IMG/VR virus record: IMGVR_UViG_3300033148_001674
Coordinates: 1 to 39,087 of that record
DNA length: 39,087 bases
Direction: 5' to 3' (one strand)
Source: a virus
Below the pieces are notes generated by a model. The model saw only the letters and a program-made list of their open reading frames with translations, was not told where the DNA came from and ran no database searches. A program made the position numbers and the translations under genes. This document shows positions 1-39,087 of the stretch, one piece after another. The first letter of the stretch is position 1; every line of letters begins with the position of its first letter.

Positions 1-114
1 GAGCGTGAGCGTGAGCGTGAGCGTGAGCGTGAGCGTGAGCGTGAGCGCGAGCGCGAGCTTTTTTTTCGTGCCGCTTGCGTACGCAGCACTTGACAAGAGC
101 GCTGCGCCGTGTTA
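1..114. repeat. Direct terminal repeat, left copy
   Basis: Positions 1-114 are identical to 38974-39087. The repeat holds seven GAGCGT hexamers, two GAGCGC units, an eight-T run, and the -35 box plus the first bases of the -10 box of the first early promoter. It could be a true short terminal redundancy, as in T7-type phages, or the overlap left when a circular assembly was linearised. The hexamer array continues to the left of 38974, so the left boundary lies inside simple sequence and cannot be placed biologically. Confidence 0.85.
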
Positions 115-8254: not shown

Positions 8255-10111
8255 ATGTACCCAAGTTTAAAAAATCTAACTCACATTGGGTTGGATACAG
8301 AAACAACAGGGTTGAGATACCCCAGAGACAAAGCTTTTTGCGTGTCATTATGCACACCTGACCGAAGCACGTTTTACATAGACTTTCGTTACGACCAAAA
8401 TGCAGTAAAATGGCTAGAGCGTGAATTAAAAGATTACAAAGGAACCATAATTTGCCATAATGCCAGCTTCGATTTCCGTATGTTGGCTTCGGCGGGTTGT
8501 TCACTTCCAATCCAACAAATGGACGATACTTGCATAAGGGCTTGTTTACTTAATGAACATGAATCAACGATATTTCCATGGACTAAGAGGCCTGGCAATT
8601 TTTCACTCGATTACTTATCGGCGAAATATCTTGGCGAGAAGAAGCGAGACGAAATCTACGAAGAACTCGCGGCCATTTTTGGCGGGCGAGCCACCCGAAA
8701 CGTGCAAATGCCAAATATCAGCAAAGCTCCGCCAGAAATCGTTGCGCCATATGCGGAATATGATGCTTTATTGGCACTTGAGCTGTGGGAATATCAAAAT
8801 GAGCAAATTCACGAGCAAGGCATAGAACAAATAACAGAATTCGAACGCAAATTGATGCCTACTCTAATTAGAGCTGAAATGCGCGGCATTCGAGTTGATT
8901 TGGATTACGCACATCAAGCAAAGGATAAAATGGATGTTGTCGTTAAACAAGCCCAGAAAACGCTTAATATTGATGCAGGATGGGACGTTAATACGAATTC
9001 GCCGAAACAAATTAGAGAATTATTCCGACCGAAGAAGACCGAAAGTGGAGTTTGGTTCGCTGAGGATGGTACTGTTCTTGAGTCTACTGGCACAGGGAAT
9101 CCTAGTTTCGGCGGTAATACTCTTCGCGAAATGAAAGACCCGCGAGCCGCTAAGATTGTGGAATTGCGTTCGCTAATCAAGACACGCGACACTTTCTTAG
9201 GTAAGCATGTAATAGAGCATTCAATAAACGGGCGAGTCTATCCCAACATAAACCAAACAAAAGGCGAAGATGGCGGAACAGGCACGGGGCGGCTATCTTA
9301 TACTGAGCCTGCTATGCAACAAATTCCGTCGCGCAATAAGAAAATTGCCAAAATCGTAAAACCTGCATTCCTACCAGAAGAAGGCCAAATTTGGGTTTCC
9401 TCAGATTTAAGTTCATTTGAAGTAAGAGTATTCGCCCATTTAGTGGCGGCATATAACAACACTATTACCGAAGTATATAAGAAAAACCCAAACACAGACT
9501 TTCATCAGTACGTAGCTGATTTGATGGGAGTGCCGCGCAATGCAACTTATTCTGGCCAAGCCAACGGCAAACAACTTAATTTGTCGATGATTTTCAATTC
9601 TGGCAATGGAGCTATTGCAGATGGCGTAGGCATGCCATGGGAATGGGCTGAATTCAAAGACAAGAAAGGGAAAATCATCCGCTACAAGAAAGCAGGCAAG
9701 GAAGCGATGGATATGATAGCTAAATATCACGCGCATGTTCCTGGAGTGAAAAAGTTAGCAACAAGAGCCAAAGAAATAGCGGAATCGCGCGGTTGGATTA
9801 AGACAATGTTTGGTCGTAGATTACGATTCCCTAAAGGCTACAAATCATACAAATCATCGGGCTTGCTGATCCAAGCGACCTCGGCAGATATCAACAAAGA
9901 AAATTGGATGATTATCGAAGAAGCGTTAGGCGATGATGGTCATATGATTCTAAACACCCATGACAGTTACCCTATGTCAATAGACGAAAATTGGGAGCCA
10001 GTATGGGAAAGAGTAAAAAATGCAGTCCAAAGGGACGTACTAAGGGTTCCGCTTTTAATTGACTTTGAAGGAGTCGGTAAAAATTGGGCTGATTCATTAT
10101 ACGGGAGTTAA
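8255..10111 (+). CDS. dpoZ: Family A DNA polymerase (DpoZ-type)
   Basis: A 618-residue polymerase with an N-terminal 3'-5' exonuclease domain (DTETTG at residues 14-19, NASFDF near 71, DALLALELW near 180) and a C-terminal polymerase domain. Motif A is SSDLSSFEVRVFAHL with Asp384, where most family members have DYSQIELR. Motif B has Lys near 439 followed by FNSGNG instead of the usual NFGxxYG. Motif C is THDSY with Asp570. There is no 5'-3' exonuclease domain, as in T7 polymerase. Its place directly before PrimPol-helicase, purZ, mazZ and datZ fits DpoZ, the polymerase of phiVC8-type Z phages. The preference for dZTP is inferred from context. Confidence 0.9.
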   Translation: MYPSLKNLTHIGLDTETTGLRYPRDKAFCVSLCTPDRSTFYIDFRYDQNAVKWLERELKDYKGTIICHNASFDFRMLASAGCSLPIQQMDDTCIRACLLNEHESTIFPWTKRPGNFSLDYLSAKYLGEKKRDEIYEELAAIFGGRATRNVQMPNISKAPPEIVAPYAEYDALLALELWEYQNEQIHEQGIEQITEFERKLMPTLIRAEMRGIRVDLDYAHQAKDKMDVVVKQAQKTLNIDAGWDVNTNSPKQIRELFRPKKTESGVWFAEDGTVLESTGTGNPSFGGNTLREMKDPRAAKIVELRSLIKTRDTFLGKHVIEHSINGRVYPNINQTKGEDGGTGTGRLSYTEPAMQQIPSRNKKIAKIVKPAFLPEEGQIWVSSDLSSFEVRVFAHLVAAYNNTITEVYKKNPNTDFHQYVADLMGVPRNATYSGQANGKQLNLSMIFNSGNGAIADGVGMPWEWAEFKDKKGKIIRYKKAGKEAMDMIAKYHAHVPGVKKLATRAKEIAESRGWIKTMFGRRLRFPKGYKSYKSSGLLIQATSADINKENWMIIEEALGDDGHMILNTHDSYPMSIDENWEPVWERVKNAVQRDVLRVPLLIDFEGVGKNWADSLYGS

Positions 10112-10112
10112 G

Positions 10113-12416
10113 ATGTACATCAGCAAAGAGAAAATTGACGAGATTGATGCTATAGTCAATAAATCCGACAGGATATTAGCAGCAGCATTGCACTATGCGG
10201 ACGTAGGGATTTATGTGGTTCCTCTGATGCCGAATGCAAAAGCGTTACCTTACCCTAAACATAAGTATAGCATCAATTACGGCAGTGCCAGTAAAAAGAG
10301 AGAAACTCTATTTAAATGGTTTGGTCCGAACGGCAAATTTCGGGGTTGGAATATTGGAATAGCATGCGGCAAGGAGGGTGGAGTATTCGCCCTCGATATT
10401 GACATCAAAGGGAAGATTAACGGATTCGATGCGCTTGAAGGGTTCGAGGCTGAACACGGTAGCATCATTGCGCCTTCACAGACCACACCTAGCGGAGGCC
10501 GCCATTTTCTCTTCAAATGGGCTGATGATGGGGTTTGCAGCAGTAACAAAATCGCAAAAGGAATTGACACGCGAGGCGGCAATGCTGCCTCTTGCCAAGG
10601 GCACATTGTCGCATGGCCATCCGAAGTTGATGGAGGGTACTACAATTGGGATAAAGAAGGCGCCGTACCGTCTATCCCAAGTTGGGTACTTGATGAAATG
10701 GGGCAAAGCTGGAAAAATAAAGCAGTTAGCTCCAAAGGACGGGGCAATGAAAATGTTGACAAAGACGACCTCGAAATGCGGTATACTATCCAGCAAATCC
10801 GAGAGATTCTTGAGCACATAGACGCCACGGAATGTGATTATTCCGAATGGCTCCACGTCGGGCAAGCTATTGGAACTCAGCATCCCGACGCGGACGGCCT
10901 GCAACTCTGGGATGATTGGAGCCAGTCTGACTCTACGAGATATAACGTAGGAGGACCAAGCTCATGCCGCAGCAAGTGGCCTAGCTTTTCTGCGGATGGT
11001 CCAATAAGAATCGGGACTCTTATTCATTATGCGCAGAAGGGAGGATACGATCCAAGAAGAACAACTCTCGTTTCAATGCCTGAAATGGGAGACACTACTG
11101 AGGTCGACGGAGTTGTCGCCACTCTCAACAAAAAATACGCCGTAGTGGCGATAGGTGGAACCGTTAAAATCATAATGGAAACGCCGAACGACGACCCGTT
11201 CATTGAAAATTTTAAAATTCTAGGTGAACAAGGCTTTAAACTGTTAATGGCTAATGATCTGATAATAATGCCAGACCCAAACGGCAATCTCAAGAAAATC
11301 AGTAAAGCTATGGTTTGGCTGGGCAGCGAGGAACGCAGGACATATGAAAACGGAATTACGTTCATGCCAAATAAACCGAAAAAGCATAATGATTGCTTCA
11401 ACACATGGCAAGGATGGGCTAAAGAAGCAATCGAGGGCGATTGGTCATTCTTTAAATCGCACTTACTGGAAGTAATATGCAACAAAGATAAAAATCATTA
11501 TGATTGGATTATGGATTGGATGGCCGACGCCATCCAAGAACCGATGAATCCGAAAGGCTGCGCTATAGTAATGAAGGGCGAAGAAGGCTGCGGTAAAGGT
11601 ACTCTTGCTAACATGTTTGGGGAATTATTCGGCAATCACTATAGACACGTAACCCATGAAGACCACTTGACAGGTAAATTCAATAGCCACTTAGCAGAAG
11701 CACAGTTAATTTTTGCCGATGAAGTCACTTACGGCGGAACCAAAAAAGTAGCTGGTGTTTTAAAATCGCTAGTAACAGAAAGGTCGCTAATGGTTGAGCG
11801 CAAAGGCATTGACCCGACTGCGTACAGAAACGTATCACGGCTATTAATAGCATCCAATGAAGCGTGGTTCATTCCAGCTGGGCCACAATCGCGCCGTTGG
11901 TTTGTGCTAGACGTTCCGAACACGAGAGTTGGCGATACGCGATATTTCGGAGAGATAAAAACTCAAATGGAAAATGGTGGATATGAAGCAATGTACCATG
12001 AATTGGCCGAAAGAAAAATAGAAAATGACTTGCGTCAAGCTCCTGTAACTGAGTTATTGATGGATCAGCGAGCACGAAGCTCGGTGTCGAATTCAGTGGT
12101 TGAGTGGTGGACAAACCAAATAGAATTAGGAAGCATTGATGTTCCTCAAGACGCTGAATTCGGCGAGGAGGAAGATTGGCCAGAGGTGTTAGATAGAATC
12201 GCAGTCTACACAGCATATGAGAGTTGGTGCAATGGAACCAGCCTAGGCAAGCTAATATCGAAAGTAGTGTTCTATCGACAAGTAGAAAAAGATTTCGGTT
12301 TAACTATAACCAGACCCAAATCTAATTCGGGGAAAAGAAGAAAGATGTATAAAATTCCTTCTCACGACAAAGCAGCAAAACTATTAACCAAAGCAACAGG
12401 AATAAACATAATATGA
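10113..12416 (+). CDS. PrimPol-helicase fusion replication protein
   Basis: A 767-residue multidomain protein. Residues about 25-210 are an AEP-type primase-polymerase with the catalytic DIDIK (Asp95, Asp97) and GIDTRGG further on. Residues about 235-315 resemble PriCT-2 (EWLHVGQAIG, RSKWPSF). From about 450 to 650 lies an SF3/D5-like helicase with Walker A GEEGCGKGT (about 489-497), LIFADEV as Walker B, and IASNEAWFIPAGPQSRRWFV. It should unwind and prime the genome for the DNA polymerase. The start at 10113 follows GGGAG one base after the polymerase stop; the longer frame from 10059 would overlap the polymerase. Its stop overlaps the purZ start. Confidence 0.9.
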   Translation: MYISKEKIDEIDAIVNKSDRILAAALHYADVGIYVVPLMPNAKALPYPKHKYSINYGSASKKRETLFKWFGPNGKFRGWNIGIACGKEGGVFALDIDIKGKINGFDALEGFEAEHGSIIAPSQTTPSGGRHFLFKWADDGVCSSNKIAKGIDTRGGNAASCQGHIVAWPSEVDGGYYNWDKEGAVPSIPSWVLDEMGQSWKNKAVSSKGRGNENVDKDDLEMRYTIQQIREILEHIDATECDYSEWLHVGQAIGTQHPDADGLQLWDDWSQSDSTRYNVGGPSSCRSKWPSFSADGPIRIGTLIHYAQKGGYDPRRTTLVSMPEMGDTTEVDGVVATLNKKYAVVAIGGTVKIIMETPNDDPFIENFKILGEQGFKLLMANDLIIMPDPNGNLKKISKAMVWLGSEERRTYENGITFMPNKPKKHNDCFNTWQGWAKEAIEGDWSFFKSHLLEVICNKDKNHYDWIMDWMADAIQEPMNPKGCAIVMKGEEGCGKGTLANMFGELFGNHYRHVTHEDHLTGKFNSHLAEAQLIFADEVTYGGTKKVAGVLKSLVTERSLMVERKGIDPTAYRNVSRLLIASNEAWFIPAGPQSRRWFVLDVPNTRVGDTRYFGEIKTQMENGGYEAMYHELAERKIENDLRQAPVTELLMDQRARSSVSNSVVEWWTNQIELGSIDVPQDAEFGEEEDWPEVLDRIAVYTAYESWCNGTSLGKLISKVVFYRQVEKDFGLTITRPKSNSGKRRKMYKIPSHDKAAKLLTKATGINII

Positions 12417-13480
12417 AAAAAGTAGATATGATCGTAGATTTACAATTCGGAAGCACTGGAAAGGGGTTGATCGCAGGATATTTAGCGGAAACGCGCGGAT
12501 ATGATGTAGTAATCAACGCCAACATGCCAAATGCTGGCCATACTTACATTAACGCCGAAGGGCGAAAGTGGATGCACAAAGTGTTGCCTAATGGCATTGT
12601 GTCGCCTAATCTGAAAAAAGTTATGATTGGGCCAGGCTCAATTTTCAGCATAGAACAATTAATCAGTGAGGTTATGGATTCTGATGATTTACTATCGAGC
12701 GTAGACATTGAAGTTCTGATTCACCCTAACGCCGTTGTGCTGAAAGAACACCACAAGAACGACGAGCAGGATTGTCCGGACAAAAAAGGTATTGGTTCTA
12801 CTCGCCAAGGAAGCGCCGAAGCCATGATACACAAAATTCACCGATCAGTAGATGAAGATGTGATTGCTCGCGACGATACTGTATTGCATAATGCGCTAAA
12901 CGCACTAACAAGAGAAACAGGCGTCGACATCAGGGTTTGTGCTCACCATGAATGGCGTTGGGTGCTACACACGGCTAAAAATATTTTAGCCGAAGCGGCA
13001 CAGGGTTATTCTCTTGGTTTGAATTCTCAATTCTATCCATATTGCACTAGCCGTGATTGCACTCCAGCACGATTCTTATCTGATATGGGAATCCCGCATA
13101 AATTCCTGCGTCATGTCGTCGGGACTATGCGAGTCCATCCGATTCGAGTGGCTGGTACTTCTGGTGGCTGCTACCCTGACCAACATGAAATTTCTTGGGA
13201 AGAGCTAGGCCAAATTCCAGAATTAACTACTGTAACTAAAAAAGTACGTCGGGTATTTACTTATTCTCAAGTACAAGTGCAAGACGCAATATTCGACTGT
13301 CAGCCTGATGAAGTCTTCGTTAACTTCTGTAATTACGACGAAACCAAAGGACAGCAATGCGTAGAACACGTAAACCGTATCGCAAATACGTTCGAAACCC
13401 CTTTATTTAAAATATACAAAGGACACGGACCAACATTCACTGACGTAGAGGAATACTTCAATGGGAATGTCTCAGCATAA
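12413..13480 (+). CDS. purZ: PurZ, 2-aminodeoxyadenylosuccinate synthetase
   Basis: A 355-residue member of the adenylosuccinate synthetase family. The P-loop reads QFGSTGKG (residues 11-18) where PurA has QWGDEGKG, so the catalytic Asp is replaced by Ser14; this change marks PurZ proteins. NAGHT with His43 is kept, as are GIGSTRQG and the C-terminal RVHPIRVAGTSGG region. It is shorter than PurA (about 430). PurZ condenses dGMP with aspartate, using a nucleoside triphosphate, to 2-aminodeoxyadenylosuccinate, which host PurB turns into dZMP. It overlaps the PrimPol-helicase stop by four bases and mazZ by twenty, so the group is one translationally coupled operon. Confidence 0.93.
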   Translation: MKKVDMIVDLQFGSTGKGLIAGYLAETRGYDVVINANMPNAGHTYINAEGRKWMHKVLPNGIVSPNLKKVMIGPGSIFSIEQLISEVMDSDDLLSSVDIEVLIHPNAVVLKEHHKNDEQDCPDKKGIGSTRQGSAEAMIHKIHRSVDEDVIARDDTVLHNALNALTRETGVDIRVCAHHEWRWVLHTAKNILAEAAQGYSLGLNSQFYPYCTSRDCTPARFLSDMGIPHKFLRHVVGTMRVHPIRVAGTSGGCYPDQHEISWEELGQIPELTTVTKKVRRVFTYSQVQVQDAIFDCQPDEVFVNFCNYDETKGQQCVEHVNRIANTFETPLFKIYKGHGPTFTDVEEYFNGNVSA

Positions 13481-13754
13481 ATACGATGAAACTCTTGAGA
13501 TATTGACTAACATGGCTAAAGTAAAGTTAGCCATGAACAATCACAAGGGAAACATCGAAGATTTGCCCTACGCGGAACTGTCAAAGTGTTTGGAAGGTGA
13601 AGTTGCCGAATTGAATGAGGCCATGTTAGATAAGACATATATGGCAGTAATCGAAGAAGGCGCGGACGTTTTAAATTTTTTATTGGCAGCCGTACATAAA
13701 GCCACTATGGCATACAGAACAAGGAAAGATAAAATTGAATCTAACAATAAATGA
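13461..13754 (+). CDS. mazZ: MazZ, MazG-like (d)GTP pyrophosphohydrolase
   Basis: A 97-residue all-helical MazG-like protein. The metal-binding pattern is EVAE (Glu47, Glu50) in helix two and EGAD (Glu66, Asp69) in helix three, the usual ExxE...ExxD of the family. In Z phages MazZ converts dGTP or GTP to the monophosphate, supplying dGMP to PurZ. The start at 13461 has GAGG about eight bases upstream and lies inside purZ; a second ATG at 13467 is possible. The 20-base overlap with purZ and with datZ indicates coupled expression. MazG-fold proteins can act on other nucleotides, but its place between purZ and datZ makes MazZ by far the best call. Confidence 0.88.
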   Translation: MGMSQHKYDETLEILTNMAKVKLAMNNHKGNIEDLPYAELSKCLEGEVAELNEAMLDKTYMAVIEEGADVLNFLLAAVHKATMAYRTRKDKIESNNK

Positions 13755-14232
13755 TAAATTGCGAGCCGAAACAGTAGACAGATTTCAGTTGGTTCGCACT
13801 CACAGAAAGCAATCCATAGCGGAGCATATGTGGGCGGTAGCGACGTTGGCCAATGAAGTGTGCAATATTGCCTGCATGGACCCTCAGCCTCTGATAAAAG
13901 CGGCGATATTCCACGATATTGCTGAAGTTGTGACAGGCGATATTCCGACACCAACAAAAGAGATGGCGCGAAACGCAGGATTAGACCTGAATAGTCTAGT
14001 TGACTGTACTCCGATAGTTCTATTGACAGGCACGCAAAAGTTAATACTAAAGGCATGCGATTTGATAGACGCCATGAGATTTTTAGCAGTGGAAGGCTAC
14101 GGAGAACATGCGAAAGTAGTGCTATCAAGCATTCGCACCAAGGTATTCCGTCTTGTTGAATTTGAATGTGATGACGGGGACGTAAGAAAAGCATTAATGA
14201 ACGTAATAAACGCGATCCAGAAAGGAAATTAG
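13735..14232 (+). CDS. datZ: DatZ, HD-domain dATP triphosphohydrolase
   Basis: A 165-residue HD-domain hydrolase. The metal ligands are visible as His31 (IAEHMW), His60-Asp61 (FHDIAEVVTGD) and Asp109 (CDLID). The length matches compact DatZ proteins of Z phages. DatZ removes the phosphates from dATP, so adenine is kept out of the new genome. The start is TTG at 13735 with AAGGA about nine bases upstream, inside the end of mazZ. The only nearby ATG (13751) is out of frame, so a weak start is likely used, with coupling to mazZ. A general dNTPase of the YfbR type is the alternative; context favours DatZ. Confidence 0.88.
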   Translation: MNLTINDKLRAETVDRFQLVRTHRKQSIAEHMWAVATLANEVCNIACMDPQPLIKAAIFHDIAEVVTGDIPTPTKEMARNAGLDLNSLVDCTPIVLLTGTQKLILKACDLIDAMRFLAVEGYGEHAKVVLSSIRTKVFRLVEFECDDGDVRKALMNVINAIQKGN

Positions 14233-14234
14233 AC

Positions 14235-14651
14235 ATGAACCCAGAACGAGTTTTTTGGAATTACTTACGCCCAGAAATGAAAATTATGGGTCATATGGAG
14301 CGCATCGAATCCCACAGCACGGCGAACGGACAGCCTGATGTGAACTTCTGTATTGAAGGAACAGAAGGCAATATTGAACTTAAGTATTGCAACAGCAAAA
14401 AAGGGTTCGTACTCCGTAAAAGCCAATATCAATGGTTTAAGCGTAGAATAAAAGCAGGAGGTAATCCGTGGATACTAGCGAAATTAGAAGTAACAACAAC
14501 CCAGTGCCAATATATGTTAATTTCTGGCGAGCATGCGGCCGAGTTAATGAAAAATTCAAAGCCGCGTGCGTGGATGATACTATCTACGGTTGTGTGGCAA
14601 GACAAAGTAAACTTCACCGAATTGAAGAACCTACTAAAGGAAGGTTGGTAA
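14235..14651 (+). CDS. PD-(D/E)XK nuclease, VRR-NUC or resolvase-like
   Basis: A 138-residue protein with the pattern Glu22...GQPDVNF (Asp35)...IELKYC (Glu48, Lys50), a PD-(D/E)XK nuclease core. It is followed by LRKSQYQWFKRRIKAGGNPWILAK, as seen in VRR-NUC and phage resolvase-type nucleases. It starts two bases after datZ, with AAGGAAAT upstream, and its TAA overlaps the next ATG. It could be a Holliday-junction or branched-DNA endonuclease acting before packaging, the job of T7 endonuclease I, or a host-DNA degrading enzyme. The fold is well supported; the substrate is not known. Confidence 0.75.
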   Translation: MNPERVFWNYLRPEMKIMGHMERIESHSTANGQPDVNFCIEGTEGNIELKYCNSKKGFVLRKSQYQWFKRRIKAGGNPWILAKLEVTTTQCQYMLISGEHAAELMKNSKPRAWMILSTVVWQDKVNFTELKNLLKEGW

Positions 14652-14926
14652 TGGAAACAATAGAGAAAACACTGGAAGAAAGAGGTAACCGATATGGCAA
14701 TGCCGATCACCTAGGTTACCAGGAACAAAAAATCAAAGAAACTATGCGCAATTCTCCTAATTGGAAGAATGACCGCTTGAGCGATGCTCAGAAATATTGC
14801 CTTGATATGATCACAACTAAGATGGCTCGCATTCTTTGCGGTGATCCGAATTATGACGATAACTGGCATGACATTCAAGGTTACGCTAAATTGATCGAAG
14901 ATAAGATCAATAAGGAAATGAAATGA
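14651..14926 (+). CDS. Conserved phage protein (91 aa, DUF6378-like)
   Basis: The start at 14651 overlaps the nuclease stop (TAATG); an open frame reaches back to 14468 inside the nuclease gene without support. The 91-residue product has the pattern ERGNRYGNADHLG...LSDAQKYCLDMITTKMARILCGDPNYDDNWHDIQGYAKL. I recognise this as a widespread small phage protein (ERG.YG at the N-terminus and W.D..GY.. near the end), usually near replication genes. The function is unknown. Its stop overlaps the endolysin start by four bases. Confidence 0.75.
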   Translation: METIEKTLEERGNRYGNADHLGYQEQKIKETMRNSPNWKNDRLSDAQKYCLDMITTKMARILCGDPNYDDNWHDIQGYAKLIEDKINKEMK

Positions 14927-17371: not shown

Positions 17372-18478
17372 TTATGCTAATGGTGGTGAGATTGATACGT
17401 AGCCACTACTTGCAACAGCTATCCATATACCTGAGCCGTCTGTGGATATGGAAGTGAAATCTGCGTACACATCCCCACTATTTAACCCTTGCGGTAAAGC
17501 ACTCCAGTTTAACCCGTTATCTGTTGAGATCGAAGTGATGCCACTACGCGCAACAGCTATCCATATACCTGAGCCATCTGTAGATATTGAATAGAAATCT
17601 GCAATCGTATACCCACCGTTCAATCCTTGAGGTAAGGCACTCCAGTTTAACCCATTATCTGTCGATATCGAGGCATGGCCGTAGAGTGCAACAGCTATCC
17701 ACGTGCCTGAGCCATCTGTAGATATTGACATGAAATTCGCACCCACCTCTCCACTATTCAATCCTTTAGGTAAAGCACTCCAATTTAACCCATTGTCTGT
17801 CGAGATTGCTGCGTAGCCCCCGTGTGCAACAGCCATCCAAGTGCCTGAGCCGTCTGTAGATATTGACGTGAAGTACACATCCACCGCTCCACTATTTAAC
17901 CCTTGCGGTAAAGCACTCCAGTTTAACCCGTTATCTGTTGAGATTGATGCGTAGCCACTATATGTAACAGCTATCCATATACCTGAGCCATCTGTAGATA
18001 CTGACTGGAAGCTTGCGCCTGTACTTCCACTGTTCAATCCTCTAGGTAAAGCACTCCAGTTTAACCCATTATCTGTCGAGATTACTGCCCTGCCACTAGA
18101 TCCAACAGCTATCCATATGCCCGAGGCGTCTGTGGATATTGAGTTGAAGCTTGCATCTGGGTCTCCACTGTCCAATCCCTTAGGTAAAGCACTCCAGTTT
18201 AACCCGTTATTTGTTGAGATTGCTGCGTAGCCATCGCGGGCAACAGCTATCCAAGTGCCTGAGCCATCCGTGTATACTGAGTTGAAGTTTGCGCCTACGT
18301 CTCCACTATTCAGCCCCCTCTCAAGCGCCCCCCAAACCAACGGCGGCTCAGGTGCAGGGTCAATCGCATATCGCCACAAATCCCCGTTCTTATCAGCAGC
18401 CAATAGGGTCAAATTATCATCCAATAATCCCGCTAGTTTTACCGCTACGCTTATGCTTGTTGGCTTTATTTCTGCCAT
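17372..18478 (-). CDS. Seven-repeat beta-propeller-like adhesin
   Basis: A 368-residue protein. After an N-terminal 50-residue segment (DLWRYAIDPAPEPPLVWGAL) come seven tandem repeats of 46 residues. The consensus is GLNSG....FxSISTDGSGxWIAVA..GYASISTDNGLNWSALP, and the last repeat is cut short at SISPPLA. Each repeat holds an Asp-box-like STDNGLNW. The N-terminal WGALER can complete the last repeat, as in a propeller closed by its termini. Variation concentrates at repeat residues 6-11 and 27-31, probably exposed loops. It sits after the tail fibre and shares its bracketing segments with it. It is likely a receptor-binding or carbohydrate-binding protein. Confidence 0.8.
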   Translation of the reverse strand: MAEIKPTSISVAVKLAGLLDDNLTLLAADKNGDLWRYAIDPAPEPPLVWGALERGLNSGDVGANFNSVYTDGSGTWIAVARDGYAAISTNNGLNWSALPKGLDSGDPDASFNSISTDASGIWIAVGSSGRAVISTDNGLNWSALPRGLNSGSTGASFQSVSTDGSGIWIAVTYSGYASISTDNGLNWSALPQGLNSGAVDVYFTSISTDGSGTWMAVAHGGYAAISTDNGLNWSALPKGLNSGEVGANFMSISTDGSGTWIAVALYGHASISTDNGLNWSALPQGLNGGYTIADFYSISTDGSGIWIAVARSGITSISTDNGLNWSALPQGLNSGDVYADFTSISTDGSGIWIAVASSGYVSISPPLA

Positions 18479-18491
18479 TGTTTATTTCTCC

Positions 18492-21400
18492 TTATGCTAA
18501 TGGGGGTGAGATTGAGGCGTAGCCAGAGGTATCAACATTGGCAAAATCTACCCCGTTTGTAGCCAGTGACCCTATCCCGTTCGGGTTTCCTGAATTTAAG
18601 TTGTCAGGTAATTGTTCAAGAGTCGCGCCATCAAACGTGTATGCGTCACCGCTCGAATTCCCTATCACAGCGTGTAGCCCAGAGCTAATGGCTATAGTAG
18701 GGTCGGTGATTCCATGCGGCATTACCGTAACGAAAGACGCTTCACCTGCGCCTAGCTTTAGTATGCTAGAGTTATCAATCGCGTAGACTTCACCTGCGAT
18801 CGTAAATAGTGCAATTGCGTTAGTGGTAAACAATCTTGTTATGTTGCTATCACTTATGTCACCGTTCCTGAAATCTACTAACGATAATTTTGTCATATAC
18901 TCCGTAGAATTATACTCTAGCAGGGTGTATATATCGTAATCTGTAGACGTAACGAAGTGGGTAGAGATGCTAGCAGTCACAATACTATATTCAGTCAATG
19001 TGCCATTGACATAATCTAGTGCTGCATTAAACCCATACATGTTCGCGCTTGTGTCAAGCATTAGGAACTCGCCAGTATTAGTAGAGTATCCTGCAAACAT
19101 CGGGGTTGGAGGGACTATCTGCTCTACTAGGACGGTGGTAAACCCATCATCGGTGACTGCTAGAGTGTAATTCCACCCACCTGAGTATTCTCGCAAATTA
19201 ACCATAATTCTATTTGTGTTAGAACCTACACAATTCACCGCCCGTTTATTGCTAATTAACGCGGGTTTTGTAAAGCTAACACCTCGGTCAAAGCTGACAG
19301 TTGACGCGCCTGTCAGATTAAGCCCGAAAAGCATAAAACCGTTACTCATGGCGATAGTAGCACCAATAAAAGAGGTCTCTCCTGTACCCACGTAGCGCTC
19401 TAACGCCCCCCAAATCAAAGGCGGCTCAGGTGCTGCACTTAAAGCATATCGCCACAAATCACCAGCACTATCCATTGCAATAACTACTGCATTCTCATCA
19501 TTAACGCCTGTTATTTTTAAAGCGACACTGACACCAGCAGGCAAAATGGCAGCATCTCCGCTAAAATTTGAAACGTCTACCCAAGCCCCGTGCGGAACCA
19601 GTTTAAGTTCACCATCATTGGCAACCCCTAAACCCGTATTACCTAAGCCATATTCATTAGCCAAAAACTCTTGGTTGATTGCCTTGGTATCAACAGCGAC
19701 CGCAGGTGTAGCTACATCAAAGCTTTGTGCTGCATCCCCTGCAAGCTCAGCCTTACCAGCATCTAACGCATTAAAAGCATCCGTCGATGTTGCGCCAGCG
19801 ACATTTGATTTATTAATTACACCGTCAGTATTAACCGAAACAGGGCTATCTACATATGTATTAGCGTCATAGCCCGCATACATTGTTATATTAGCATTGC
19901 CCCCATTGTGCTTGACGGCTCTAGTGTGCATCCGTACGCGAATACCTGCTGGGTAATTTACAGATTCAAGAATTACGCCAGAAATTCCCACGCTGCTTAA
20001 ATCATTTGCACCTAGCTCAATAATTCCAGTGTTCAGAACTGATACTGGTTTAACGCCTAGGTCACCTATTGGTTGTCCAGTAATACCAGAGTCAATTACA
20101 ACCCCTTGAGCGTCACATAAATATACTTCAGTTTCTATGCTGAATTGAGCCTGCCCAGAACTTGATTCAATAGTTATATTGCCACTGTAGTTGCCCGCAG
20201 GAAGTATCCCAGCATCGTCTATACTATCTCTAACAAAATCACTGGCAAAATAAGCAGTATCACCATTCCCAGATAAACTGACCACTTGGTTAACTAAATC
20301 AACAGTACCTTTATTGGTTTTCATTAAACCAAATGTACCTTCGGTCAATGTAACTGTTTCACCAGTACCATAATTTCGATTTATCAAACCTGCTGTTGTT
20401 TGTGGTGCAGAAGATACAATAGGGTTTTGTGGGTCTGCGTTGTTAACTGCAATACCTGTACCAGCAACAATAGTTTCTACACCTCCTGAAACAGTGGATG
20501 AGATAATAGGGTTTGCAGGGTCTGTGTTATCCACCCCTATTCCAGTACCAGCAACAACGGAACCAACGCCTGATAAGTTACGCCATACAGTCCAACTCCC
20601 ACTGGCTCTAGTACGTGTCCAGATACTATTTGAGTTATCCTCGTATGGATACCAAAATTGAGTAGCTTCGGTCAGAGGAGTGGCTACCCATTCTGTATGT
20701 AGCAACGTACCTGATTGTTCTTCTGGAGTACCTGTAAAGCCTACGTAAGATTGGTATATGCCTGATGTAGTCAACGCATCTAAATCACTATCTGAGATGA
20801 CTACAGCGTCTAGGGAGCTTCCACCTAAACTGTTCTCTAGCATAGCAACCCAAGTGGTAGCATTCTTACGGATAAATAACCACTTTTCGCTTATTCCAAA
20901 TGTAAGGTGTGAACCAACATCCATGATGGGTTCCCCTGCCTGAATCTTCAAGCAACTAGCACCTACAAACGAAATCGTACTAGTAAGCCCAATATATTCA
21001 TCATCATTACGTATAACCCTAAACATGGCTCCATCAGTCAGGGTGCCTGCATTAACAGTCATGTATGCACGATAAGTTAATTCAAAGGTAGTATTTGCAT
21101 CTTCATCAGTAAGTGTATAGTGCGTAGAGGGTACGTAAACATACTTATCCTCATTGCCGCCATCAGTGCTGGAAGCAACGGCAGGATTTCCATCAGCATC
21201 CCAGAAAAAATATTTGTTCTTGCGATCATCGATAGTTGGAACCGTATTATCAAGAGGATTTAATTCAGGGAAAATTAATGCTCTTTCCCATAAACTACTT
21301 AATGAACGCCAAATTTCTTGGATTATCATTGTTAATTTATCTAATGCACGTTCATGCGATGAAGCTGGGAATCGCGCATAGTCAGGATATGCAGTTTCTT

Positions 21401-21647
21401 GCGTTACGTCAGTGCTGCGCCATATTCTGACCACTGAGCCACTAATAGGAGCAACATCGAATTCCACATCGCCACCAGGATTTGAATCTTGGTCAGGGTT
21501 CATTGTAACAGTGAAAGGGTGACTATCAACATCATCAACAGACGCGAAAATAAAATCCGCTTCATCTGACTCGAAAGCGAAATCAAATTGAGTGACTCCG
21601 CCAGTACCTGTGTATATAATCTCAGGATCTAAATCTTGTACTGTCAT
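18492..21647 (-). CDS. Tail fibre with T7 gp17-like N-terminus
   Basis: A 1051-residue fibre. Residues about 1-120 (TVQDLDPEIIYTGTGGVTQFDFAFE, RIWRSTDVTQETAYPDYARF, ERALDKLTMIIQEIWRSL) match the T7-type virion-attachment domain. The middle, to about residue 690, is a repetitive shaft with duplicated segments such as VVAGTGIGVDNTDPANPI and IVAGTGIAVNNADPQNPI. From about residue 700 the C-terminus carries DLWRYALSAAPEPPLIWGALER and ends GYASISPPLA, sequences shared with the next gene. The part between is a different receptor-facing domain, possibly also propeller-like. The start has AAGGAAG upstream. Confidence 0.88.
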   Translation of the reverse strand: MTVQDLDPEIIYTGTGGVTQFDFAFESDEADFIFASVDDVDSHPFTVTMNPDQDSNPGGDVEFDVAPISGSVVRIWRSTDVTQETAYPDYARFPASSHERALDKLTMIIQEIWRSLSSLWERALIFPELNPLDNTVPTIDDRKNKYFFWDADGNPAVASSTDGGNEDKYVYVPSTHYTLTDEDANTTFELTYRAYMTVNAGTLTDGAMFRVIRNDDEYIGLTSTISFVGASCLKIQAGEPIMDVGSHLTFGISEKWLFIRKNATTWVAMLENSLGGSSLDAVVISDSDLDALTTSGIYQSYVGFTGTPEEQSGTLLHTEWVATPLTEATQFWYPYEDNSNSIWTRTRASGSWTVWRNLSGVGSVVAGTGIGVDNTDPANPIISSTVSGGVETIVAGTGIAVNNADPQNPIVSSAPQTTAGLINRNYGTGETVTLTEGTFGLMKTNKGTVDLVNQVVSLSGNGDTAYFASDFVRDSIDDAGILPAGNYSGNITIESSSGQAQFSIETEVYLCDAQGVVIDSGITGQPIGDLGVKPVSVLNTGIIELGANDLSSVGISGVILESVNYPAGIRVRMHTRAVKHNGGNANITMYAGYDANTYVDSPVSVNTDGVINKSNVAGATSTDAFNALDAGKAELAGDAAQSFDVATPAVAVDTKAINQEFLANEYGLGNTGLGVANDGELKLVPHGAWVDVSNFSGDAAILPAGVSVALKITGVNDENAVVIAMDSAGDLWRYALSAAPEPPLIWGALERYVGTGETSFIGATIAMSNGFMLFGLNLTGASTVSFDRGVSFTKPALISNKRAVNCVGSNTNRIMVNLREYSGGWNYTLAVTDDGFTTVLVEQIVPPTPMFAGYSTNTGEFLMLDTSANMYGFNAALDYVNGTLTEYSIVTASISTHFVTSTDYDIYTLLEYNSTEYMTKLSLVDFRNGDISDSNITRLFTTNAIALFTIAGEVYAIDNSSILKLGAGEASFVTVMPHGITDPTIAISSGLHAVIGNSSGDAYTFDGATLEQLPDNLNSGNPNGIGSLATNGVDFANVDTSGYASISPPLA

Positions 21648-21656
21648 AATACTTCC

Positions 21657-23993
21657 TTATTGAGGTTTGAACCAATATTTTTGGCCTGTTTCTTTTCTCA
21701 TTTTTCTCATTCGCTTGCGCATTTCCCTGTCATATTTAGGGTTCGATGCTCTTTTCAAATGGTCAGTAAGCCCGCGCTCAATTGCGAGCCTAGCATACCA
21801 AATATTAGCACCTGGAAAGTTATTAATAACAAAATCAACTGCATTTTTACTGAATCCGCTATAGTCGCCCTCGCTTAGCTTTTCGAAATTAGCAAATGCC
21901 ATAACTTCGTAAATGTCTTGGACTGAACCGCCGAATGTTGGTCCAGCTATTTGCTGAGCGACGGATGCCACATGACCAGTAGCGCCATTATTAGTAATGA
22001 AATCTCCAAAAATACCTAGACCGCCGCCCTGCCTGAAAGCACTAACCCACAAATGAGGGTCGTTCCAATCCATGAGAGTCTTGCCTTTGGCTAATTCTTT
22101 GGCTTGAACGATAACTGAACCTATCGCAGTAGTCATCGCTATCATACTGCCTATGTATGATGCTTTGCCGAGCATGGAAGATTGAGCCATTCCTCGGCCT
22201 AAGTGAGTCATCATCATAGTTAACGGAAATGCTTTAAACTGCATCGCTGTCCTAACTAACTCGCCGCTATTGGTTCCTGATTTGGAACCAAAAGACGTAA
22301 ATGATCTTACTCTTGCGTCCGGAGTAGGAACAGCAAATGAAGTCTCAGTATCTATCATACCTACGAATTTGGCTTGCGTCTTGATGTCCATACTCAACGG
22401 ATCGAGAAACTCTTCGCCATTTCGTTTTATTTTTTGGCTTGAACGTATACTATTCCATTCTTTGGAATCGATGCCGTAGCGTTTCATGGCTTTTTGCATC
22501 TTGCTGCCTAAGCCGCTAAAATCTTTACTAGATAATCTAGTTAATTCTGATACGAATTCAATGCCGAAAGACGCTCTGGATAATTGAGTATGTGAGGCGA
22601 GACCAGAAACTTTCATTACTGTCTCTGCTAAATTGCGAGACCATTGAGACCCCGCGTTTTTGCTGTAATCATGAGCAGCCAATCCTCTGTCGACAGCATA
22701 TTCAGCAGAGATAGCCAGCCTAGATGCGAATTTATTCATTTCATCTACGTCCATTTTGGCTATAGCAGATAAATAACGTTTCATAGGCGCTAGAGCTTTT
22801 AGTCCGTTATATCGAGCTGTCTGAGCCATAAAACCGCTATCAGTAGCTGCGCTGAGTAACGCTCCACCTAATTTAGTGGCGACGTTAATGTTGCGAAACG
22901 ACGACAGCCATTGGGCGAATTTTCCGCCTTCACCGTTGGCTTTACCGCGCAGAATATCAAAAGTTTGTTGCGCTCTCCATCCTGCGTTGTTTCTGTCGGC
23001 CAAATTTTTAGCTTGTTTTTTGGCTGCTGTTCTCATGTAATCCATTGTCATAGCAGGATTAGGACCCATAATCTCAGCTAGTGCGATATTTTTAGCCATG
23101 GTGTCTATGTAATCAGTCATGGTGCGATATAGATTTTGGCTTCCGAATCTTTCTTGATAATCCAGCCAAGCATCCGCATTTTTGAATTCCATGAAGCGTT
23201 CTTGATTGTGGCGATTGACGATTTTCTCGCCTAGATTTTTAGGAAGACCGCGCCCTTGCAGCCTGCTGCCGCCATCAGTGCTGAAATTATCATATAACTC
23301 AGATAGTAATAAATCAACATCTTGATCGTCCATTCTGGATAAGCCCATAGAATCCAAATCTATTCTTTCCTTAGTGAAGGAAATCCAGTCATCGCGGCTT
23401 GCTTGCCCGATAAGAGTAGAGTCATGGGTCTGGGGCATCACCCATCCTTTTTTCTCGGCAATGTCTCCGCCTGCTTTGTTCATGCGCGTTCTTAGCATGT
23501 CTGCAGTTTTTTTCCAAACTGCAGCAAACGAGGATGCATCTCCGTCATTCGACGCTTCGCCCATCAATTCTTTGACAGTGTTCCGCATTAAGGTCACTTG
23601 ACCTTCTGTGCGAGTGCTGCCGCCTGCTATGCCAGCAACTTGACGGTGCACTTTAGGGCGTAAAGCGGCCATCATTTCATTGAGTTCACCATGAGCTATG
23701 TTGCGAATCACGGCTTGGTGATTCTCGACACTGACACGCCCTGATAGTTCAAATCTATCTTTGGTCAGAACCGCTTCAATGCCCGCTACCAATCCTTCTG
23801 GGTGAGCATTTATCGCATTAATATTGGCCATAATGGCAATAGCTTGTTTTTTGGCTTGGTATTTCTTTAACTCCTGTTTTTTGGCAGCGCCTTTTAATGT
23901 GTCAATATCGACACGCTCTGCGTCGGAAGTGTTGAACGCATCTTCCATTTCTTTTCTGCTAAATCCTGCGCCTACTATACATTTGCTGCTCAT
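21657..23993 (-). CDS. Internal virion (ejection) protein, 778 aa
   Basis: The start at 23993 follows GGAGGT six bases upstream and overlaps the previous gene's stop; the frame extends slightly further, to 24011. The protein is largely helical. An N-terminal charged region (AAKKQELKKYQAKKQAIAIM) and a hydrophobic stretch near the C-terminus (YIGSMIAMTTAIGSVIVQAK) resemble large internal core proteins of podoviruses that leave the capsid with the DNA. It lies between other ejection candidates and the tail fibre, the place of T7 gp16. No enzyme motif was recognised. The role is assigned by position, size and composition. Confidence 0.7.
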   Translation of the reverse strand: MSSKCIVGAGFSRKEMEDAFNTSDAERVDIDTLKGAAKKQELKKYQAKKQAIAIMANINAINAHPEGLVAGIEAVLTKDRFELSGRVSVENHQAVIRNIAHGELNEMMAALRPKVHRQVAGIAGGSTRTEGQVTLMRNTVKELMGEASNDGDASSFAAVWKKTADMLRTRMNKAGGDIAEKKGWVMPQTHDSTLIGQASRDDWISFTKERIDLDSMGLSRMDDQDVDLLLSELYDNFSTDGGSRLQGRGLPKNLGEKIVNRHNQERFMEFKNADAWLDYQERFGSQNLYRTMTDYIDTMAKNIALAEIMGPNPAMTMDYMRTAAKKQAKNLADRNNAGWRAQQTFDILRGKANGEGGKFAQWLSSFRNINVATKLGGALLSAATDSGFMAQTARYNGLKALAPMKRYLSAIAKMDVDEMNKFASRLAISAEYAVDRGLAAHDYSKNAGSQWSRNLAETVMKVSGLASHTQLSRASFGIEFVSELTRLSSKDFSGLGSKMQKAMKRYGIDSKEWNSIRSSQKIKRNGEEFLDPLSMDIKTQAKFVGMIDTETSFAVPTPDARVRSFTSFGSKSGTNSGELVRTAMQFKAFPLTMMMTHLGRGMAQSSMLGKASYIGSMIAMTTAIGSVIVQAKELAKGKTLMDWNDPHLWVSAFRQGGGLGIFGDFITNNGATGHVASVAQQIAGPTFGGSVQDIYEVMAFANFEKLSEGDYSGFSKNAVDFVINNFPGANIWYARLAIERGLTDHLKRASNPKYDREMRKRMRKMRKETGQKYWFKPQ

Positions 23994-38929: not shown

Positions 38930-39031
38930 GCGAGCGTGAGCGCGAGCGTGAGCGTGAGCGTGAGCGTGAGCGCGAGCGTGAGCGTGAGCGTGAGCGTGAG
39001 CGTGAGCGTGAGCGTGAGCGCGAGCGCGAGC
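38930..39031. repeat. GAGCGT/GAGCGC hexamer tandem array
   Basis: About 17 consecutive six-base units, mostly GAGCGT with scattered GAGCGC, followed by an eight-T run. The last ten or so units are the same sequence as positions 1-58. Open frames through it encode only dipeptide repeats such as Ser-Val or Thr-Leu and are not genes. Its place at the genome end suggests a role in packaging or end processing; this is inference. Confidence 0.85.
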
Positions 39032-39087
39032 TTTTTTTTCGTGCCGCTTGCGTACGCAGCACTTGACAAGAGCGCTGCGCCGTGTTA
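38974..39087. repeat. Direct terminal repeat, right copy
   Basis: Exact copy of positions 1-114, ending within the -10 box of the first early promoter. It shows that the genome is terminally redundant or was assembled as a circle. Joined through this repeat, the right-end noncoding block and the first early gene are contiguous. Confidence 0.85.

Follow-up and report, generated by a model that had tools for sequence, protein, structure and literature searches.

The window we analysed, the whole of virus record IMGVR_UViG_3300033148_001674 (39,087 bases), carries its structural genes (terminase, portal, head and tail) on the minus strand of one half and its early genes on the plus strand of the other. 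A first-pass annotation had placed a five-gene set that included PurZ, MazZ and DatZ at 8255-14232, and we found all five genes there on the plus strand, every frame intact. In the feature list below, which also takes in the two genes that follow datZ, Z stands for 2-aminoadenine.

8255..10111, plus strand: DpoZ-type polA, a 618-aa family A DNA polymerase that includes a 3'-5' exonuclease; dZTP is predicted to be favoured over dATP
10113..12416, plus strand: PrimPol primase-helicase; the frame is open from TTG 10059, ATG 10113 being the likelier start
12413..13480, plus strand: purZ, 355 aa; predicted to convert dGMP, Asp and (d)ATP to dSMP (succino-amino-deoxyadenylate), the committed step to dZTP
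13461..13754, plus strand: mazZ (MazZ-2), 97 aa, phiVC8-type MazG-like NTP pyrophosphohydrolase; predicted to convert dGTP to dGMP, feeding PurZ
13735..14232, plus strand: datZ, 165 aa, TTG start; HD-domain dATP triphosphohydrolase, predicted to remove dATP
14235..14651, plus strand: nuclease-like protein, putatively accessory; phrog_2165, E-value 8e-24 (PHROG label: DNA helicase), syntenic with the ZP6 'nuclease' gp20
14651..14926, plus strand: DUF6378 protein, frame open from GTG 14468; Pfam DUF6378 score below the cut-off

Gene layout and genomic setting

The cluster had been described as an overlapping operon, which holds for three of its junctions (primase-purZ, 4 bases; purZ-mazZ, 20; mazZ-datZ, 20); the polymerase and primase genes overlap only if the latter starts at TTG 10059, as the polymerase frame ends at 10111, just before ATG 10113. 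Downstream of datZ, the nuclease-like protein is 33-36% identical to homologues at the same position in phages ZP6 and K300, and homologues of the DUF6378 protein are found in phiVC8, K300, ZP6, Bm1, BUCT555 and many PurZ contigs. In this region different PurZ phages have either a DUF6378 or a DUF5664-like protein, and both recur. The DUF6378 protein of the window might be a further nucleotide-pool enzyme; as to a possible likeness to DUF5664, which would make it a second dNTP hydrolase (PMC12884076), a model containing DUF5664 did not match it.

An exact direct repeat of 114 bases lies at the two ends of the window (1-114 and 38974-39087), which suggests that the genome is terminally redundant or was assembled circularly. 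In the best explanation, the window is a podovirus-like phage genome of the phiVC8/ZP6 kind, complete or nearly so. The repeat holds an array of the hexamer GAGCGT that reaches further at the right end. We also noted a tail-region protein (17372-18478) with about seven near-identical repeats of a motif like 'SISTDGSGIWIAVA...NGLNWSALP.GLNSG', the C-terminus of which (SGY.SISPPLA) resembles the end of the neighbouring protein at 18492-21647.

The proteins of the cluster

The polymerase scored 875 bits against the NCBIfam model phage_DpoZ_1 (cut-off 500), was 65% identical to Vibrio phage DpoZ, and in a PDB sequence search matched the phiVC8 DpoZ structure 7pbk with an E-value of 2.3e-274. DpoZ of the phiVC8 kind is marked by three insertions and by the atypical residues L455, F459, G548 and S583 in phiVC8 numbering (PMC8599892). 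By alignment, the window polymerase has all three insertions together with the corresponding L443, F447, G536 and S571, and its exonuclease residues D14, E16 and D73 are present. DpoZ-like polymerases are also known from phages without Z genes, e.g., phiJL001 (PMC8599892), which counts against reading the cluster as a Z system. The adjacent primase-helicase has Prim-Pol, PriCT_2 and DUF5906 domains (Pfam), and is 50% and 43% identical to the primases of K300 and ZP6, respectively.

PurZ, which was assigned to phrog_1211, scored 378.3 bits against the NCBIfam model amino_Aden_PurZ (cut-off 300) and up to 125 bits against the PurA equivalog models, far under their cut-offs. Its PDB matches ran from the phiVC8 PurZ structure 6fm1 (E-value 1.6e-127) through S-2L PurZ (3e-64) and the PurA-like entry 7vf6 (7e-23) to ordinary PurA (2e-17 or weaker). 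Within the P-loop, DLQFGSTGKG, alignment placed Ser14 opposite the catalytic Asp of E. coli PurA, as the first-pass annotation had proposed. Of the residues that bind dGMP and ATP in the S-2L and phiVC8 enzymes according to PMC8342488, nearly all are kept by alignment (G13, S14, N40, A41, G42, H43, T44, G128, S129, T130, R144, Q197, Y210, C211, T212, R245, V246, T272, T275, R279, N304, F305 and N307); Thr stands in the column of S-2L R244, likewise in phiVC8, and K277 corresponds to phiVC8 K267. Branching within bacterial PurA had been named as a result that would speak against the proposal. In a maximum likelihood tree of 46 rows (IQ-TREE), in which the PurA rows were E. coli and two MAGs and archaeal PurA was left out, PurZ fell within the phage PurZ clade, split from PurA with support of 100/100 and from PurZ0 with 99/97.

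Apart from the phage sequences, we came upon a PurZ-type gene in two MAG chromosomes of alphaproteobacterial type (L020:2968-4011, DJLZ01000001.1, UBA6503; and L019:2977-4014, JAJFIW010000018.1). The two proteins are 63% identical to each other, and both have GSTGKG, with Ser for Asp. Gene order around them is conserved (glpK-cmk-purZ-like-Ham1/rdgB-rpsA) and the context is not that of a phage. In each genome this gene was the sole PF00709 member found, a match to ADSL_C was found in neither of these possibly incomplete MAGs, and the sole Lyase_1 protein, in the one genome where it was inspected, resembles fumarase; thus a PurZ-type enzyme seems to exist there without PurA or PurB, in MAGs that may be incomplete.

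MazZ is the least certain and the weakest-supported of the Z genes, its assignment drawing on its motif, its synteny and a weak structural match. The protein is 54-57% identical to its counterparts in phiVC8, ZP6 and K300. The MazZ-2 type has been described from its position, flanked by purZ and datZ, and from four acidic residues that are conserved (PMC8342488), and the ExxE...ExxD pattern reported in the first pass was recovered by alignment as E47, E50, E66 and D69, which together with R86 are invariant across 11 MazZ-2 proteins. That these acidic residues are equivalent to E35, E38, E50 and E53 of S-2L, and the Arg to R83, is taken from PMC8342488. General MazG-type models, Pfam PRA-PH among them, gave sub-threshold scores, and a PDB sequence search gave no meaningful match. 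For comparison with the all-alpha MazG/HisE NTP-PPase fold, we had a confident AF2 model (pLDDT 90), which is a chain made up of three long helices. Its Foldseek matches took in structures of MazG and PRA-PH, all at E>0.7 and without significance, and the best PDB match (2p06) had a Z of 9.6, under the level set for caution with helical bundles. Our literature search found no assay of dGTP hydrolysis by a MazZ-2 protein, the activity being deduced in the papers that it yielded. During the comparison we saw that Vibrio phage K300 (OZ195699.1) has a MazZ-2 gene between purZ and datZ, at 21801-22049 on the minus strand, that is absent from the annotation of the record.

DatZ, at 26-37% identity to known DatZ proteins, is the most diverged product of the set. 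Its best structure match in a PDB sequence search was S-2L DatZ (6zpa, E-value 5.5e-15), and it scored 109 bits against phrog_7076 (dATP triphosphohydrolase). In the S-2L enzyme the metal ligands are H34, H66, D67 and D119, the phosphate contacts R19, K81 and K116, and the base pocket W20, I22 and P79 (PMC8065100). Alignment with it upheld the earlier assignment of His31, His60/Asp61 and Asp109 as the HD ligands and matched R16, K75 and K106 to the phosphate contacts; E64 and G68 are also kept, so that all catalytic and phosphate residues are present. In the base pocket, F17, L19 and P73 are conserved residues or conservative replacements. At the places of Trp20 and Ile22, Leu is found in phiVC8 and Tyr in BUCT555, the Leu at the Ile22 position being shared by phiVC8 and the window protein. 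We counted the low identity and the Phe17/Leu19 substitutions against the Z reading.

A predicted Z-genome and its alternatives

The gene set is real and, as such sets are known, complete; what the sequence shows directly is the genes, the families they belong to, their conserved active sites and their synteny. That these are Z-phage versions of the genes, as first proposed, agrees with both residues and family membership for PurZ, DatZ and the polymerase, and with residues and synteny for MazZ. On the strength of the NCBIfam cut-offs passed by PurZ and DpoZ, the active sites, the PurZ clade, the synteny with phiVC8 and ZP6 and the recurrence of the set in PurZ contigs, the best inference, and one we hold with high confidence, is that this phage has a Z-genome, with 2-aminoadenine for adenine throughout its DNA, although the letters of a sequence do not tell A from Z. 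The matches (E-values of 1.6e-127 for PurZ, 2e-274 for the polymerase and 5.5e-15 for DatZ) are far beyond chance. What the enzymes do, which steps the host supplies and what bases the virion DNA holds we infer from the studied homologues. MazZ-2 would hydrolyse dGTP to dGMP, from which PurZ, with aspartate, would form dSMP; the remaining steps to dZTP would fall to PurB and nucleotide kinases of the host, DatZ would destroy dATP, and DpoZ, preferring Z over A, would insert Z opposite T.

Some departure from this scheme is conceivable. It is improbable, in our estimate, that the phage represents a new Z-phage genus between Enhodamvirus and Mareflavirus whose DatZ, with its Phe/Leu pocket, and MazZ-2 have shifted in specificity, altering the balance between pool control and polymerase selection. 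We give still less weight to a partly working cluster, e.g., one with drifted MazZ-2 or DatZ specificity, that would leave a mixture of A and Z in the virion DNA. The divergence of DatZ, with Phe for Trp20 and Leu for Ile22, would fit such a mixture, as would the fact that we found no published assay of MazZ-2 substrate specificity; however, the catalytic residues of both proteins are all conserved, phiVC8, which is reported to be adenine-free, has Leu at the Ile22 position as well, and DpoZ adds a second layer of selection. It is very hard to credit that the set consists of ordinary purine salvage and replication genes of host origin (PurA, MazG, a YfbR-like nucleotidase and Pol I) that boost nucleotide supply for unmodified DNA. 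All four do belong, or likely belong, to superfamilies that include such genes (Pfam); against this, Ser replaces the catalytic Asp in PurZ, which groups with phage PurZ and not PurA and favours the PurZ model by 378 bits to at most 125 for PurA models left far under their cut-offs, the DpoZ-specific insertions are present, and the cluster is syntenic with Z-phages.

On the Z-genome reading, the phage is one more Z-phage lineage that by itself raises no new question on the Z system. The one real gap that it highlights is the predicted activity of MazZ-2, which is common to the whole phiVC8-type group. The diverged PurZ, DatZ, MazZ-2 and DpoZ of the phage could find use in the production of Z-DNA.

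Comparison with known Z-phages

Hundreds of phages are known to carry this well-studied system, of which the gene set here is a further example. PurZ relatives are encoded on 382 IMG/VR stretches, and most of the best 80 of these carry the whole Z gene set; the commonest combination among those 80 was DpoZ, PurZ, MazZ (of either type) and DatZ, in which the MazZ share is an upper estimate because some 'MazZ1' matches are DUF5664-type proteins. A 2026 survey found PurZ phages mostly with DatZ plus either MazZ-2 or DUF550 (PMC12884076).

Among phage records, the best matches for PurZ, MazZ-2, DatZ and DpoZ were in phiVC8-type Vibrio phages and ZP6. The usual genus level is about 70% nucleotide identity. 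A megablast search of window positions 1-24000 against 50,697 phage records gave no match, so that the phage is likely a new genus; the missing match speaks against membership of Enhodamvirus or Mareflavirus.

Vibrio phage phiVC8 (Enhodamvirus) has the same order of polA-primase-purZ-mazZ-datZ-nuclease, the DpoZ insertions and a MazZ of type 2, with PurZ at 58.6% and DpoZ at 65% identity, but its DatZ is just 35% identical and a further small gene separates its datZ from the nuclease gene. The DNA of phiVC8 and S-2L is reported to be free of adenine (PMC8599892). Vibrio phages of the K300 group match 27 of the 40 window ORFs tested (DpoZ 65%, PurZ 56-57% and portal 58% identity), with a TerL at just 34%. 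Alteromonas phage ZP6 (Mareflavirus), for which essentially the same gene reading of a diaminopurine system was published in 2021 (PMC8515928), shares the cluster and its synteny (TerL 64%, portal 48%, DpoZ 56%, MazZ 55%) and gave tblastn matches for 22 of 40 tested ORFs; it differs in a PurZ at 52-54%, a DatZ at 32%, a tail and lysis region that is largely unrelated, and the lack of a nucleotide-level match. Cyanophage S-2L shares the PurZ and DatZ active-site residues and the order purZ-mazZ-datZ, but has MazZ-1, a PurZ at 38-40% and a DatZ at 29% identity, and no DpoZ, its cluster having PrimPol only (PMC8065100).
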